Part shown: one piece after another, positions 12,250 through 46,863 of the stretch | How positions within the stretch are numbered: the stretch's first letter is position 1 | Layout: every line of letters starts with the position of its first letter | The notes under the pieces: model-generated | The model's database searches: none | What the model saw: the letters and a program-made list of their open reading frames with translations, nothing else | What the model was told of the DNA's origin: nothing | Position numbers and translations under genes: made by a program | From: Blastococcus haudaquaticus | GTDB taxonomy: Bacteria; Actinomycetota; Actinomycetes; Mycobacteriales; Geodermatophilaceae | Assembly: GCF_900230285.1 (NCBI RefSeq) | Contig: NZ_OCNK01000001.1 | Coordinates: forward strand, 1-64,000 | DNA length: 64,000 nt | Reading direction: 5' to 3'

Positions 12250-13257
12250 CTAGGCAGCGCGCAACTCCATGCGGAGGGCCTCGATGGTCTTCTCCCGGTC
12301 GAGGTGGGAGCTGTAGCCGGCGGCGAGGACGTGCCCGCCCCCGCCGAGCGCCATCGCCACCCGGGCGACGTCCGTGGCGCCCCGCGACCGCAGGGACACC
12401 GACCACGAACCGTCGTCCTGGCCCTTGAGCACGCAGGCCACGTCGGCCTCCTCGGTGGACCGCACGACGTCGACGAGCGCCTCGAGCTGCTCACCGGGCA
12501 GCCCGTGCTCGCCCGCCTCGGCGGTGCTCGAATACGTCCAGACCAGGCCGGCCCCCACGTCGGGCTCGAGGACCGCGCGCCCGGTGACGACGGAGAGCAG
12601 CCCCAGCCAGCCGAAGGGCGCGGTGTCGAACAGCCGCCGGCTGATGTCGGAGTGGTCGATGCCCGTGGCCAGGAGCCGGGCGGCGAGCTCGTGGGTCTCC
12701 GGACGGGTGTTGCCGAATCGGAAGGACCCGGTGTCGGCGGCCAGCCCGGCGTACAGGCAGGTGGCCAGCCGTCGGTCCAGCGCGACGCCCAGTTCGTCGA
12801 GCAGCCCGGCTACCAGCGTCACCGTGGCGGGGGCGCCGCCGTCGACGAGCTGGACGTCCCCGAACCCGGGGTTGCTCGCATGGTGGTCGACGACGACCGA
12901 CGTGCCTGCGGCGTCCAGGAGGACGGCGAGCTCACCGAGGCGAGCGGGCGATGCGGCGTCGAGGCTGACGAAGACGTCCGGCGAGGACGGGACGGCGGTC
13001 GACGGCACCAGCCCTTCGGCACCCGGCAGCCAGCCGAGGGAGGCCGGGAGGGTGAAGGGGCCGGGGAACGTGACCAGGACGCGGGCACCCTGACGCCGAA
13101 GCCCCTCGGCGAGGGCCAGCGTGCTGCCGAGAGCGTCCGCATCGGGCTGCACGTGCCCGGACAGGACGACGGTGGCGCGGGTGTCCGCCGCCTCGGCCAG
13201 CACCGAGGCGGCGGTGCGCAGCGGGGCGTCCGCCGCGCGGGCGGAGGTGAGCGACAT
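12250..13257 (-). CDS. nrnA: DHH-family oligoribonuclease / pAp phosphatase
   Basis: 335 residues. NrnA-type enzymes degrade short RNAs and 3'-phosphoadenosine 5'-phosphate. Visible motifs are SGHVQPDADALGS, VVDHHASNPGF and the C-terminal DHHA1 glycine-rich GGGGHVLAAGYSS. The gene order rbfA-nrnA-dinF is that of M. tuberculosis Rv2838c-Rv2836c. ATG start, seven bases after the stop of the small acidic ORF at 13264. Confidence 0.93.
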   Translation of the reverse strand: MSLTSARAADAPLRTAASVLAEAADTRATVVLSGHVQPDADALGSTLALAEGLRRQGARVLVTFPGPFTLPASLGWLPGAEGLVPSTAVPSSPDVFVSLDAASPARLGELAVLLDAAGTSVVVDHHASNPGFGDVQLVDGGAPATVTLVAGLLDELGVALDRRLATCLYAGLAADTGSFRFGNTRPETHELAARLLATGIDHSDISRRLFDTAPFGWLGLLSVVTGRAVLEPDVGAGLVWTYSSTAEAGEHGLPGEQLEALVDVVRSTEEADVACVLKGQDDGSWSVSLRSRGATDVARVAMALGGGGHVLAAGYSSHLDREKTIEALRMELRAA

Positions 13258-42122: not shown

Positions 42123-43058
42123 TCAAGCCCGCGGGTGTGCTTGAGCGTGCACCGCCCGCAGCCGTTCGACCGTCACGTGCGTGTAGATCTGGGTGGTGGC
42201 GAGGCTAGCGTGGCCCAGCAGTTCCTGGACCGACCGCAGGTCGGCGCCGCCCTCGAGCACGTGCGTGGCGGCCGAGTGCCGCAGTCCGTGCGGGCCGATG
42301 TCGGGCGCACCGTCGGTGCCGGCGACCGCGGAGTGCACGGTCCGCCGCACCTCGCGGGGGTCCAGACGTCGCCCGCGGGCCCCGAGCAACAGGGCCGGAC
42401 CGGACCCCGGAACGGCCAGCGCGGGGCGGCCGCGGGTCAGCCAGGCGTCGAGGGCCTGCTCGGCGGGGACGCCGTACGGGACGCTGCGCTCCTTGCCACC
42501 CTTGCCGAGCACCCGCAGCAGCCGACGGCTGCGGTCGACGTCGTCGATGTCCAGTCCGACGAGCTCGCTGACGCGGATGCCGCTGGCGTAGAGCAGCTCC
42601 AGGACCACCGCGTCGCGGAGCCCGATCGGCTCCTCGGCGCCGGCGGCCGATTCGACGACCGCCCGCGCCTGGTCGGGGGCGAGGACGTCCGGAAGGGTGC
42701 GGTGCGCCTTGGGGCTGACCAGCCGCAGCCCGACGTCCTCGGGGATGAGGCCGGCCCGGCGCAACCAGGCGGCGAACGAGCGGGCGGACGCGGCGTGCCG
42801 GGCGGTGGTGGCCCGGCCGTGCCCCCGGGTCCGCCCCTGGGCCAGCCAGCTGCGGAGCGTCGCGAGGTCGAGGTCGTGGACCTGTCCGCCGCCCCGGCGG
42901 GCCAGGTGGTCGAGCAGGCTGACCGCGTCGGTCACGTACCCGCGGACGGTGTGGTCGGACAGGTCCCGCTGAGTGCGCAGGTGGTCCTCGTAGCCCTCGA
43001 GCGCGGCGGCCAGCGCTGTCGGCAGCGCCGCCCGCGTCTCCGCCGTTCCCGCGCTCAT
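42123..43058 (-). CDS. xerC: Tyrosine recombinase XerC
   Basis: 311 residues. N-terminal SAM-like domain ([20 protein letters not shown]) and catalytic domain with the tyrosine-recombinase set: Arg in [39 protein letters not shown] (nucleophile Tyr). A core xer gene resolving chromosome dimers, in its usual place next to dprA (as Rv2894c), not an element-encoded integrase. No good ribosome-binding site before the ATG. Confidence 0.92.
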
Positions 43059-43089: not shown

Positions 43090-44331
43090 TCAAGCCGCCG
43101 CGCCGCGACCCCCCTTCCCCGCGGGCGGCCGCAGCCGCCAGCCGGTGCCGGTCCACTCGACCAGGTCGGCCAGTTCCAGCGCCGGGAGCACCCGCAGGAC
43201 GTCCAGGACGTCGCATCCCGCGACGGCGGCCAGCCGGTCCGGCGATACACCGGTGCGGACGGGACAGGCGTCCAGCACGCGGAGGGCCACGTCGGACAGC
43301 CCGTCCCTGGGCGAGGAGGGCCCCACCAGCGGCGGCGCGAGGTCGTCGCCGATCCGGCCCACGGCCTGGATGATGTGCGCCGCGGAGCTCACCAGGACCG
43401 CACGCAGCTCCTCGTCGCGCAGCAGCTCGTGACAACCCACGCTCATCGCGCTGGTCACCGGGCCCGGCACGACGAGCACCTGGCGGCCGAGGTCCTGCGC
43501 GCGGCGAGCCGTGGCCTGAGCGCCGGACCGGGCGGCTGCCTCCACCACCACGGTTCCCCGCGTGAGCGCGGCGATCAGGCGGTTGCGGACCAGGAACCGG
43601 TGACGCAGGGGCGCACAGCCCGGTGGCCACTCGCTGACCAGCAGCCCGGTCTCCGCGATGCGGTGGAACAACGCCCCGTGCGCGGCCGGGTAGGGCCGGT
43701 CCACGCCGCACGCCAGGACCGCCAGGGTCGGCGCCTCGGCCGCGAGCGCTCCGCGGTGCGCGGCAGCATCGATGCCGTAGGCGCCGCCGGAGACGACCGT
43801 CCAGCCCCGCTCGCCCAGCTGGTGCCCGAGCTCGGCCGCCACGTGCTCCCCGTACGCGGTCGAGGCCCGCGATCCCACGATCGCCACCGACCGGTCGACC
43901 AGTTCGTCGAGCCGGGCCGGACCCCGGACCCACAGCGCCAGCGGCGGTACCAGGGCCTTCGTCCGGTCCGACTGCTCCCTCCGCTCGATCGGCTCGTCGC
44001 ACACGGCGAGCGCGAGCGCCTGGAGCGGCAGCGCCGGCCACTCGTCGTCCTCGGGCACCAGGAGCCGGGCACCGCAGCGCTCGGCACGCGCGAGATCGGC
44101 CAGCGTGGCGTCCTCGCCCGCGCGAGCGCCCACGAGCGAGCGGATGGATGCAGGCGCCTGCCCCGAGCGGAGTCGGCGGACCGCGTCGACCGGGCCGGCG
44201 TCCTCCACGTAGCGCCAGAAGTCGATCGTCCCCGGCTCCACCGCCCGGCTCAGCCACGCGCGGGCGCGGCGCAGTCCCGGGCCGGCGCCCGACACGGCAC
44301 GCGCCTCGTCGAGGTCCTCGTCCAGGCTCAC
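43090..44331 (-). CDS. dprA: DNA-processing protein DprA
   Basis: 413 residues from GTG at 44331. The Rossmann-like DprA/Smf core ([57 protein letters not shown]) is intact, followed by a C-terminal winged-helix domain. DprA loads RecA on incoming single-stranded DNA. The GTG overlaps the stop of a comM 3'-end copy (44328) as GTGA, which is the ancestral comM-dprA junction. Confidence 0.93.
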
Positions 44332-44439
44332 GCCGCCGCCCGCTGGAGGCGCATGCCGAGCGCTTCGGCGACCTCGTCGGCACCTGGCACCGTGCGGCCG
44401 GCCAGATCGCTCAACGTCCATGCGACCCGCTGGACAACG
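44328..44439 (-). pseudogene. comM 3'-end fragment, copy A (joined to dprA)
   Basis: On the minus strand this encodes RVAWTLSDLAGRTVPGADEV and [12 protein letters not shown], the last ~37 residues of ComM, but no comM precedes it. It is about 81% identical by hand count over 110 bases to the end of the intact comM (45343) and to copy B (44711). Its stop overlaps the dprA start codon (GTGA), so this is probably the original comM 3' end displaced by insertion. Confidence 0.85.
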
Positions 44440-44441
44440 GA

Positions 44442-44459
44442 GTAGCCGAAGTCGGCTAC
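44442..44459. repeat. 8 bp inverted repeat at the edge of copy A
   Basis: GTAGCCGA (44442-44449) and TCGGCTAC (44452-44459) form a tight hairpin exactly where comM similarity stops and foreign sequence starts. The stop codon of the small membrane ORF lies inside it. It could be a terminator or part of a recombination site. Confidence 0.55.
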
Positions 44460-44623
44460 CTCTTGGGCTGTTTGACGGGCAGCAACGTTGCTGCCAAGAA
44501 CGTCGCTCCCCCCACGACGAGCGCCGCGGTCGGGTCCCAGACGAGCAGGCACACCAGTCCCACGACCACGCCGACGAGCAACGCAGGGATCACCCGACGA
44601 ACAGCGCCGGACCAGTACGACAT
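44456..44623 (-). CDS. Small two-helix membrane protein (array insert 1)
   Basis: 55 residues from ATG at 44623 (or 66 from ATG at 44656). The sequence has a basic start and two hydrophobic helices (VIPALLVGVVVGLVCLLVW, AALVVGGATFLAATLL) and ends KQPKR. TACGGT six bases before the 44623 ATG suggests a leaderless transcript. It is the only plausible gene in the 44440-44710 insert and is not recognised. G+C looks lower than in the flanks. Function unknown. Confidence 0.5.
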   Translation of the reverse strand: MSYWSGAVRRVIPALLVGVVVGLVCLLVWDPTAALVVGGATFLAATLLPVKQPKR

Positions 44624-44710
44624 GGTCAGACCGTAGCGATGCGACAGCCATGCCACACAGCGCCCGATGAGCCGTCAACCCCGAGTGGGTCAGGCGGGCA
44701 TCGTGGCGGC

Positions 44711-44822
44711 TCATGCCGCTGCCCGCTGCAACCGCATCCCCAGTGCCTCGGCGACCTCATCGGGACCGGGAACCGCGCGCCCTGCCAAGTCGCTCAGAGT
44801 CCATGCGACCCGCAGGACAACG
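44711..44822 (-). pseudogene. comM 3'-end fragment, copy B
   Basis: Encodes VLRVAWTLSDLAGRAVPG and [16 protein letters not shown], again the ComM C terminus without the rest. By hand count it is about 81% identical to copy A and 77% to intact comM over 110 bases. A 24 bp stretch (44799-44822) matches 44416-44439 with one mismatch and then similarity stops. The stop codon is followed by a dprA-start-like ATGAGCC. Confidence 0.85.
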
Positions 44823-44843
44823 ATCTCGCAGAAGTGACGCGGC

Positions 44844-44882
44844 CTCGTCGAGCGGAGGGGCCTCCCCCGCTGCGACGACGAG
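44844..44882. repeat. Long stem-loop at the edge of array insert 2
   Basis: CTCGTCG (44844-44850) pairs with CGACGAG (44876-44882), AGCGG with CCGCT and GGGG with CCCC, with a four-base GCGA bulge. It lies 22 bases beyond copy B, like the hairpin next to copy A. Role unknown. Confidence 0.5.
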
Positions 44883-44929
44883 CGAGGTGCCTTCCCGAAG
44901 GCGGCAGCTGTGTGCCTCAGGATGTGGGC

Positions 44930-45262
44930 GTGCGTACGGGTCTGAGCGACGAACAGTGGCGCGAAGTCGAACAGGGCTGGCTCGTTGGCCCGGACACTCG
45001 TCGGTACTCCCGACGCACCAGTCGGGCCAAGAGGAAGGACGCCGAGCGTCTGGTGACGGAAGGCGCGCCGCTGGTCCTCTTCTACTGGGGTGGCAGTCAA
45101 CTCGACTGGTTCGACGGCGTCGATGCCCAGGAGCAGTGGCAGACCGTCCGGCCGCACGTCATCACCGAACAGCCGCGCCGCAAGGGCCAGATCGAGTGGA
45201 CGGCGGGGCGTTGGGAGGACGAGGAGGGGCGGCCTCTTCTTCTGCTCACCGGCCATTGCTGA
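44930..45262 (+). CDS. Hypothetical protein (array insert 2)
   Basis: 110 residues from GTG at 44930, AGGA seven bases upstream. The sequence looks like a real soluble protein: a basic N-terminal half (RRYSRRTSRAKRKDAERLV), then PLVLFYWGGSQLDWFDGVDA and WEDEEGRPLLLLTGHC. It is unusually rich in Trp. It runs opposite to comM and dprA. No family was recognised. A 9 bp inverted repeat (45291-45299/45321-45329) downstream could terminate it. Confidence 0.6.
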   Translation: MRTGLSDEQWREVEQGWLVGPDTRRYSRRTSRAKRKDAERLVTEGAPLVLFYWGGSQLDWFDGVDAQEQWQTVRPHVITEQPRRKGQIEWTAGRWEDEEGRPLLLLTGHC

Positions 45263-45290
45263 GCGACACGAGCCCTTAGTAGGACCTGAC

Positions 45291-45329
45291 TCTTCCAGCG
45301 CCGCAATCGAGCACGTGTGGGCTGGAAGA
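45291..45329 (+). terminator. 9 bp inverted repeat after the insert 2 ORF
   Basis: TCTTCCAGC (45291-45299) and GCTGGAAGA (45321-45329) with a 21-base loop, 28 bases after the stop at 45262. A possible terminator, or the right edge of the insert next to the comM end at 45343. Confidence 0.45.
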
Positions 45330-45342
45330 TCCTCGTTGCCCG

Positions 45343-46863
45343 TCACGCCGCCGCCCGCTGTAGCCGCATGCCGAGCGCTTCGGCGACGTCGTCCGGACCG
45401 GGAACCGTCTGGCCCGCCAAGTCACTGATCGTCCAAGCGACGCGCAGCACCCGGTCGAAGCCGCGGACCGACAACGCACCTCGCTCCAGCGCCCGTTCGG
45501 CCAGCCGCAGCGCCGGGCGGGGTACGGCGAACCGCTCCCGCAACAGCCGCCCGGGGACCTGGCTGTTGACGGCGAGGCCGGTCCCCGCCAGCCGCTCCCC
45601 CGCCGCCGCCCGCGCCACGGCCACCCGCCGGGCCACCGCGGCCGTCGACTCCGGCTGCCCCACCCCGTCGAGCCAGGCGGCGCGCGTGACCGGCGGCAGA
45701 TCCACCCGGAGGTCGATGCGGTCGAGCAGGGGCCCGGAGAGGCGGGACCGGTAGCGCCGTCGCTCCAGGGGGCTGCAGGTGCAGGCGGTGTCGCCGGCCG
45801 CGCTCGCGCACGGACACGGGTTGGCGGCGAGCACCAGCTGCGCCCGGCAGGGGAACGTCGCGGAGCCCGCGGCCCGCTGGATGGTCACCTGCCCGCGCTC
45901 CAGCGGCTGGCGCAAGGTGTCCAGCACCGCGCGCGGGAACTCGGGCGCCTCGTCCAGGAAGAGGACCCCGCGGTGGGCTCGGCAGACCGCGCCCGGGCGG
46001 ATCTGGCCGGAGCCACCGCCGATCAGCGCCGCCATGGTCGCCGAGTGGTGCGGCGCCTCGAAGGTGGGCCGGGTGACCAGCGGTGCCCCGGTCGGGAGCG
46101 TTCCGGCGACCGAGTGGATCGCGGTCACCTCGAGCGCGGCCTGCTCGTCCAGGGGCGGGAGGAGGCCGGGCAGGCGCTCGGCCAGCATCGTCTTGCCGGC
46201 CCCGGGCGGCCCGGCGAGGAAGAGGTGGTGCCCGCCCGCGGCGGCGACCTCGACCGCCCGTCGTCCTGCCGCCTGACCGACGACGTCGCCCAGATCCAGC
46301 GGTGGCGGCGGCTCCGGCACCGGGCCGCGGACGTGCGCGGCGAGGCGCTCCCGTCCTGCCAGGTGGGCCAGGACCTGGGCGAGCGTCGCGGCCGCCAGCA
46401 CCTCCACGCCGTCGACCAGCGCGGCCTCGTCGGCGTTCGCAGCGGGGACGACGACCTGGGCGTGCCCGGCACGGGCCGCCGCCAGCACGGCCGGCAGGAC
46501 GCCGCGGATGGCGCGCACCGATCCGTCCAGTCCGAGCTCGCCCAGCAGCACCAGCCGGTCGACCGACTCCCGGGGCACCACTCCCGACGCAGCGAGGACC
46601 GCCGCGGCGAGTGCCAGGTCGAACCCGCTGCCCTGTTTCGGCATCGAGGCCGGCGACAGCCCGATCGTGATCCGCCGCTGGGGGAAGCTCGCCCCGGCGT
46701 TGACGACGGCCGCACGCACGCGGTCGACCGACTGCCGGACCACCGCGTCGGGAAGGCCGACCAGGGCGACGTGCGGCACCCCTTGGGCCATGTCGACCTC
46801 GACCTCCACCATGGCGCCGTGCACCCCGGCCAGACCCACCGACCAGGTGCGGGCGAGCGTCAC
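45343..46863 (-). CDS. comM: YifB/ComM-family AAA+ ATPase
   Basis: 506 residues, full length. ComM is a hexameric branch-migration helicase in natural transformation. Lon-like N-terminal domain (VGLAGVHGAMVEVEVDMAQG), Walker A in FLAGPPGAGKTMLAERLPGL, Walker B in FLDEAPEFPRAVLDTL and the C-terminal Mg-chelatase-like domain ending [14 protein letters not shown]. The GTG start overlaps the yraN stop as GTGA. Its last ~37 codons are copy C of the array; the stop is followed by a dprA-like GTGACGGGCAACGAGGATCT. Confidence 0.94.
   Translation of the reverse strand: MTLARTWSVGLAGVHGAMVEVEVDMAQGVPHVALVGLPDAVVRQSVDRVRAAVVNAGASFPQRRITIGLSPASMPKQGSGFDLALAAAVLAASGVVPRESVDRLVLLGELGLDGSVRAIRGVLPAVLAAARAGHAQVVVPAANADEAALVDGVEVLAAATLAQVLAHLAGRERLAAHVRGPVPEPPPPLDLGDVVGQAAGRRAVEVAAAGGHHLFLAGPPGAGKTMLAERLPGLLPPLDEQAALEVTAIHSVAGTLPTGAPLVTRPTFEAPHHSATMAALIGGGSGQIRPGAVCRAHRGVLFLDEAPEFPRAVLDTLRQPLERGQVTIQRAAGSATFPCRAQLVLAANPCPCASAAGDTACTCSPLERRRYRSRLSGPLLDRIDLRVDLPPVTRAAWLDGVGQPESTAAVARRVAVARAAAGERLAGTGLAVNSQVPGRLLRERFAVPRPALRLAERALERGALSVRGFDRVLRVAWTISDLAGQTVPGPDDVAEALGMRLQRAAA

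Follow-up and report, generated by a model that had tools for sequence, protein, structure and literature searches.

How does a gene come to be followed, on the way to its neighbour, by a row of additional copies of its own end? The question is raised by the 64,000-nt stretch of Blastococcus haudaquaticus DNA analysed here (contig NZ_OCNK01000001.1; hereafter the window), in which two further copies of the 3′ end of comM, set apart by short inserts, lie between comM and dprA. We propose, with a probability of about two in three, that two mini-cassettes, of 632 and 383 bp, were inserted serially at a site-specific recombination site near the comM 3′ end. Repeated insertion of small cassettes, each bringing its own comM end, had been suggested in an initial annotation of the window, and this suggestion finds support in the anatomy of the locus, the mostly empty sites of relatives, a non-comM arm common to the extra ends, the apparently foreign character of two of the three ends, a swap of ends in one relative and the presence of the same unit twice in another, all of which can be read from the sequences themselves.

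Anatomy of the comM-dprA junction

The window genome (4.51 Mb) is designated G000 and its relatives carry further G-number labels. Each copy of the comM 3′ end is called a tail, and the features on which the argument rests are as follows.

45343..46863, minus strand: comM, for a YifB-type Mg chelatase-like ATPase; intact open reading frame (ORF) of 506 residues
45440..45441, minus strand: GT core in comM, the presumed crossover; the point where tails B and A stop resembling comM
Final 99 nt of comM counted from the GT core, minus strand: tail C; 89% amino acid identity to tail B
44810..45441, minus strand: unit 2, 632 bp core to core; tail C, an opposite-strand ORF and arm B
44810..44829, minus strand: arm of tail B, GCGAGATCGTTGTCCTGCGG; leave-one-out score 23.6
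44711..44809, minus strand: tail B; GT core at 44809-44808
44427..44809, minus strand: unit 1, 383 bp core to core; tail B, a small membrane-protein-like ORF and arm A
44427..44446, minus strand: arm of tail A, GCTACTCCGTTGTCCAGCGG; leave-one-out score 17.4
44328..44426, minus strand: tail A, the putative native comM 3′ end; GT core at 44426-44425; overlaps the dprA start
43090..44331, minus strand: dprA; ORF

A repeat search returned three in-register copies (44313-44452, 44696-44835 and 45328-45467) at spacings of 383 and 632; over 140 nt, identity to the first (copy A) is 78% for the second and 75% for the third. The last 35 codons of comM recur at 44714-44818 (B) and 44331-44435 (A), between comM and dprA, and when the 35-residue tail was compared with the whole 4.51 Mb genome, the three places in the window were recovered (E = 3.4e-18, 7.1e-16 and 1.1e-14) and no fourth copy was found, the next-best match having an E-value of 0.26. 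Both searches bear out the three comM ends and two inserts that the initial annotation had described, and the inserts, put there at ~270 and ~520 bases and lower in G+C, measure 271 and 520 bp, with a G+C content of ~0.67-0.70 vs. ~0.75-0.83 outside (200-base windows). Equally accurate was its 24-bp stretch common to copies A and B, which lies at 44416-44439 and 44799-44822 with one mismatch. Of the hairpins it had placed at the sites, the one beside A does fold, with a stem of 7 bp; taken whole, the A and B sites and that of the G038 middle tail fold no clearly better than shuffled sequence (z of -1.8, +1.0 and +0.6, respectively, and +1.5 for the comM junction), and hairpins are therefore not a common feature of the sites.

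Further, most extra tails are preceded by a 20-nt arm foreign to comM, with the consensus GCTAGACCGTTGTCCTCCGG, followed mostly by GT and CGC, and it is behind this arm that these tails begin, at the equivalent core; weak or altered arms occur at the extra tail of G090 and at the second extra tail of G038. In leave-one-out scoring, the arm of each of 14 sites surpassed all 302,172 control positions, and the left arms of native comM genes (n = 10) scored from -1.3 to -5.6. Six of the 14 sites (A and B of the window, one each in G038 and G003, two in G047) came to light through the tail and not the arm, while for the others the procedure is partly circular, since they were found through the arm or beside known sites. 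The scores of arms A and B, obtained with a matrix built without them, were reached by none of the 302,172 control positions. The arm common to A and B exceeds chance.

A model built from the 14 sites and run over the 112 family genomes returned exactly its training sites at E ≤ 4e-5, in seven genomes:

Arm sites per genome: G000, 2; G003, 1; G011, 2; G036, 1; G038, 1; G047, 6; G097, 1

The next match (E = 3.5e-4) falls at the native comM of G058, and weaker ones include native comM sites. Because the model was trained on what it matched, it demonstrates separation rather than discovery and adds no new carriers. The exact arm-core pattern was found in genome contigs at one locus, in Blastococcus xanthinilyticus, whose sequence agrees with that of G038. 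An 18-mer searched loosely, with one mismatch allowed, matched in 112 of 112 genomes and was discarded as noise.

Each unit of the window carries one small ORF between its tail and its arm:

44930..45262, plus strand: cargo ORF of unit 2, 110 residues; the sole small ORF of its insert
44456..44656, minus strand: cargo ORF of unit 1, 66 residues (55 if started at an internal ATG); by eye, two hydrophobic segments

The 110-residue product matched nothing in Pfam, PHROGs, PADLOC, plasmids or viral contigs, and the 55-residue form of the other had no match in Pfam, PHROGs or PADLOC.

Junctions and tails among the relatives

Serial insertion as envisaged in the initial annotation implies relatives with empty sites and varying cargo, and comparison of their junctions agrees with both expectations: in 102 of 108 genomes a single tail lies less than 120 bp from dprA, most of these sites look empty, and the cargo varies. 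Tails were detected across the family Geodermatophilaceae with a profile (E ≤ 1e-3), which matched in 109 of 112 genomes, as did this DprA; the 108 genomes with both were tabulated, leaving out G080 (pieces of DprA, no tail) and six tail matches that were weak, at a contig end or off comM (two on G003:C72, two in G047, G094:C196 and G095:C276). The single tail of the 102 lies 18-99 bp from the DprA match, and the 57 bp between tail A and the dprA match in the window are in keeping with empty sites. Included in the 102 are G026, where a prophage-like element separates the tail from comM, and G095, where comM is on another contig; neither is a plain empty site. Within the genus of the window, the plain comM-dprA junction can be seen base by base.

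The six exceptions are G000, G038 and G090, with two or three tails, and G008, G014 and G111, in which the tail lies 467, 122 (with Ns in the tail) and 168 bp from DprA; no second tail was seen in G111. Small inserts at comM are thus present in four of the 108 (G000, G038, G090 and G008). An order-wide search matched the tail in 261 of 298 genomes. Outside the family, among the matches listed, G138 and G279 have two tail matches each, G138 with a single tail beside dprA and G279 with no dprA in the stretch taken; tails in short frames, among the same matches, abut phage-like ORFs in G244 and G194 and lie at a contig end in G317. In G056, G043 and G022, the continuous comM match beside dprA covers just the final 200-255 codons, and the front part of the gene seems to be missing, shifted or displaced.

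Are the three tails of the window of one origin? This was assessed with 72 tails of 105 nt, a subset of the 109 genomes from which tails of fewer than 29 residues or of other length had been dropped. The genus background comprised 13 ordinary tails, with G011 and the window excluded and G008 included, and had a mean identity of 0.820 ± 0.015 (range 0.803-0.845). Against the same 13 tails, A averaged 0.808, within that range, whereas B (0.774) and C (0.763) fell about 3 and 4 standard deviations below the genus background. By this measure tail A looks native and tails B and C look foreign, and tail C of the intact comM would then be element-borne. In line with this, tail B is 0.87 identical in nucleotides to the middle extra tail of G038, a member of another genus, and is nearer to it than to A or C.

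The clearest case of a swap is G090. Compared with its genus, the comM of G090 is 0.847 identical over the 75 nt upstream of the core and 0.697 over the 96 nt downstream, a difference of +0.150; in 12 reference genomes the difference runs from -0.023 to +0.047. The decayed tail on the dprA side of G090 has the reverse profile, 0.381 upstream of the core and 0.775 downstream. Judged from these identities, G090 carries a native comM body with a foreign tail, followed by a foreign insert with the native tail, which is the reciprocal pattern predicted by insertion at the core of an element bringing its own comM end. As a separate observation, the tails of G093 and G105 occupy the normal position at dprA and are nevertheless the most divergent of the 13 in the genus, and they resemble the cassette tail of G011 (0.87 and 0.83); both are possible past swaps in which no insert survived.

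Units elsewhere, prophage-like elements and candidate movers

Units of the same build also occur away from comM. G047 has an ordinary comM-dprA junction together with two arrays (at about 0.75 and 3.77 Mb), in each of which three sites point the same way. One cassette, with a gene for ~209 residues, is present in both (823 bp, 91.7% identity); when aligned, the two copies match closely from GGGTCGCCTGGC, at the core, up to the following arm, outside which no resemblance is evident. The array DNA had no match among plasmids. In G011, a 437-bp core-to-core unit directly behind nirD (named by eye) consists, in order, of a comM tail, a stretch like the start of dprA, an 80-residue membrane-type ORF and an arm, and is followed by an apparent decayed second tail in register; DprA was not found in this assembly, which is 81% complete. 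A site in G036 is followed by a stretch resembling, by eye, part of the DprA start, and G003 and G097 (72% complete) have one site each. Neighbouring sites at comM and in G011 and G047 are spaced 269-804 bp core to core, apart from the last pair in G011, which lies 7.1 kb apart.

Several observations were made beside these sites. The DNA behind the 437-bp unit of G011 (G011:C159, ~12327-13170) contains a small ORF with a PLDc_N match (E = 2.7e-5) and, by eye, a ParB-like ORF, perhaps further cargo. The contig G003:C72 (11481 bp), with one cassette site at 268, ends in 97-bp inverted repeats (99%) and may be a linear element or an assembly artefact. DNA near sites is similar across genera, 78% over 399 bp between G047 and G036 and 93% over 109 bp between G047 and G097, and these three genomes have similar small, lysine-rich, membrane-anchored ORFs near their sites.

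What could move such units? At the comM core of G026 (G026:C20:44000-62800), a prophage-like element of ~15.5 kb separates the gene from its 3′ end. There comM matches to codon 483 and then reads RSTCN and a stop, losing ~23 codons, and the tail adjoins dprA 15.5 kb from the comM body, so that the element does not restore the comM tail. A large serine integrase abuts the tail (Resolvase, E = 2.8e-28; Recombinase, E = 2.5e-9; PHROG integrase, E = 1.4e-87), and we read tape-measure-like and primase-like ORFs inside the element. From a comparison of both junctions by eye, the exchange was placed at the GT of CGG GT CGC, equivalent to the window core at 45440..45441, where the cassettes break too. 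Likewise, in two genomes from a different family of the same order, G244 and G194, ORFs that read as phage-like abut a lone tail by dprA. PF07508 was present in three of ten genomes examined (G003, G047 and G026), and relatives of the G026 integrase in 43 of the 112 family genomes (E ≤ 1e-15), with none in G000 at that threshold. We tentatively name as mover, at a little short of even odds, a large serine integrase that acts in trans and comes from a phage using the same comM site.

The mover may instead be a tyrosine recombinase, such as the XerC beside dprA, or another recombinase. Contrary to the initial annotation, which had seen no integrase in the window, one gene of this kind is present:

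42123..43013, minus strand: XerC-like tyrosine recombinase; PF00589, E = 1.5e-39, and PF02899, E = 7e-14; directly downstream of dprA

It is probably a housekeeping recombinase and, as a mover, possible but unsupported.

Proposed mechanism, rival explanations and related systems

In the mechanism we propose, each cassette would have three parts, a duplicate of the comM 3′ end, a single small gene and the 20-bp arm, and in a circular form the arm, GT and comM end would together make up the attachment site. Exchange at the GT of comM would give the gene the tail of the cassette and leave the old tail downstream, behind the cassette arm; the reading frame of comM would survive insertion because the cassette supplies a replacement. 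Since the incoming end is similar to the one it displaces, the site would be restored and a further unit could stack nearest to comM, so that the youngest cassette would be the one closest to the gene. Unit 2 (44810-45441) would accordingly have entered after unit 1 (44427-44809), with tail A as the original end. The circle, the order, any activity and the movement of units as such, including those of the window, are thus predictions from arrangement. A broader claim is possible, though less likely than not: that these are a cassette system of their own, with single-gene units mostly below 0.8 kb, a double-stranded site made of a captured comM 3′ end and a conserved arm, integron-like arrays at comM and elsewhere, a phage-type recombinase acting in trans and a ComM C-terminus swapped at each insertion.

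The inserts could also be stubs of larger phage or integrative elements that carried a comM 3′ end and were reduced by internal deletion to a small gene and two ends. The integrase-bearing element of G026 at the exact site, the phage-like ORFs abutting it in G244 and G194, and the standing of comM homologues as a common target of serine integrases (PMC10083194) all speak for such an origin. Among the family genomes surveyed, however, no large element with its own comM tail was seen at comM, that of G026 restoring none, and both the small core-to-core sizes (269-804 bp, with the one G011 exception) and the same small unit occurring twice, as such, in G047 make us regard stubs as unlikely. Movement by a tyrosine recombinase, e.g. 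host XerC/XerD or an integron-type integrase, would require no mover beyond the XerC-like gene beside the site, and reversible tyrosine systems typically build arrays of similar sites. We consider it rather improbable, given that single strands of the A, B and G038 sites fold no clearly better than shuffles, unlike attC, that the cassette sites match no Rfam family up to E = 1 and that the arm, compared by eye with the dif consensus, looks unlike dif.

Least probable of all, in our judgement, is that the comM end was duplicated in tandem long ago, with unrelated DNA now separating the copies, or that homologous recombination or natural transformation rearranged the locus over comM-end repeats. 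The tails, ~75-80% alike, are long enough to recombine, and some units (G011, G036) start with or contain, by eye, dprA-like sequence, as a copied comM-dprA junction would. Neither process accounts well for a non-comM arm common to the extra tails, for a tail B closest to a tail of another genus, for units far from comM or for a sharp reciprocal swap at the core of G090. The initial annotation had itself named a single old duplication as the arrangement that would tell against repeated insertion; the arm at the core, the foreign B and C, the G090 swap and the doubled G047 unit all disagree with it.

Several observations weigh against serial cassette insertion. The breakpoint in the window is soft, comM being 0.796 identical upstream of the core, itself low, and 0.756 downstream. 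In G038, the tail fused to comM is 0.85 identical to the decayed tail on the dprA side, and this genome does not fit the insertion model simply; G008 shows a mere trace of a second tail, read by eye. No circle or excised site was seen in this sequence analysis. When carriers were searched for an accompanying integrase, as the initial annotation had suggested, PF07508 was not found in G000 (E ≤ 1e-5) or in six other carriers (G008, G011, G036, G038, G090 and G097). The likeness of the arm to the phage half-site of G026 is weak, with 372 of 302,172 control positions scoring as high. With up to three mismatches the arm 20-mer matched at 83 places (52 of 112 genomes) vs. ~94 for a reversed control, and since such looser matches are no commoner than in the control, only those with at most two mismatches carry weight (eight places, seven of them at known sites). 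The exact arm-core pattern had 0 matches in viral contigs. When phages and plasmids were searched with the 35-residue tail, none stood out convincingly as carrying an attachment site of comM-end type; of three plasmid matches inspected, two were megabase replicons without usable annotation and one was a Streptomyces plasmid (E = 4).

How do such units relate to known systems? Integron cassettes each comprise a single gene and, at one of its ends, a recombination site, and they stand in tandem arrays. The units of the window likewise carry one gene and a site, in tandem, but they lack an attC-like fold, their site being the comM 3′ end plus the arm, and no linked integrase was seen, though no search aimed at IntI was made in the window genome or at the other arrays. 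Staphylococcal cassette chromosome (SCC) and pseudo-SCC elements insert serially at the 3′ end of staphylococcal rlmH, which is rebuilt each time, and integrase-less members exist; they differ from the window units in target, in recombinase genes and in their kilobase scale. Resistance islands that interrupt comM are known in Acinetobacter. For the large serine recombinase elements, we take the target gene to be comM/YifB by our own identification.

Mg chelatase/ComM homologues are known targets of such elements (PMC10083194, Durrant et al. 2022), and the integrase element of G026, which joins comM at the same GT as the cassettes, is like them. Those large elements encode the integrase (PMC10083194), whereas the window units stay below 0.7 kb, lack one and supply comM with a substitute end. 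Insertion at a fixed core with exchange of half-sites is found in the G090 swap and at the G026 junction; it is not specific to serine recombinases, and the contrast in the window is soft. The account of sr1WO of phage WO describes a serine-recombinase prophage in the Wolbachia magnesium chelatase gene (PMC9203015); like the window units it occupies a member of this gene family and is flanked on either side by pieces of the gene, and unlike them it is a whole prophage splitting the gene, with no cassette array in the portion consulted (PMC9203015). Similar in arrangement are the ssrA islands of Dehalococcoides, 15 of 31 of which have no integration module, and mobilisation together with their neighbours, by accretion, has been proposed for them (PMC3146451). 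These islands too stand in tandem at one gene, which is the tmRNA gene, with cargo that includes reductive dehalogenase genes and vcr islands of ~12 kb, and the sections drawn on mention no single-gene units below 1 kb (PMC3146451). The window units share the traits of integrase-less tandem islands, whether like cis-mobilizable elements or formed by accretion: no integrase of their own, direct gene-end repeats and a tandem order.

Serine-integrase insertion in this gene family and tandem integrase-less islands at one gene are therefore already known. Judged by titles and the beginnings of abstracts, we found no comM-end cassette arrays in the literature, and the new part is the sub-kilobase single-gene unit with a comM-end attachment site, arrayed at comM and elsewhere. 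If this reading is true, the family would harbour a gene-cassette system distinct from the integrons that exploits a site already known as a phage target, with units small enough to escape the usual searches for mobile elements. The spread of integrase-less units below 1 kb and their mobilisation in trans by phage integrases would then become testable, as would the effect of ComM end replacement on DNA uptake.

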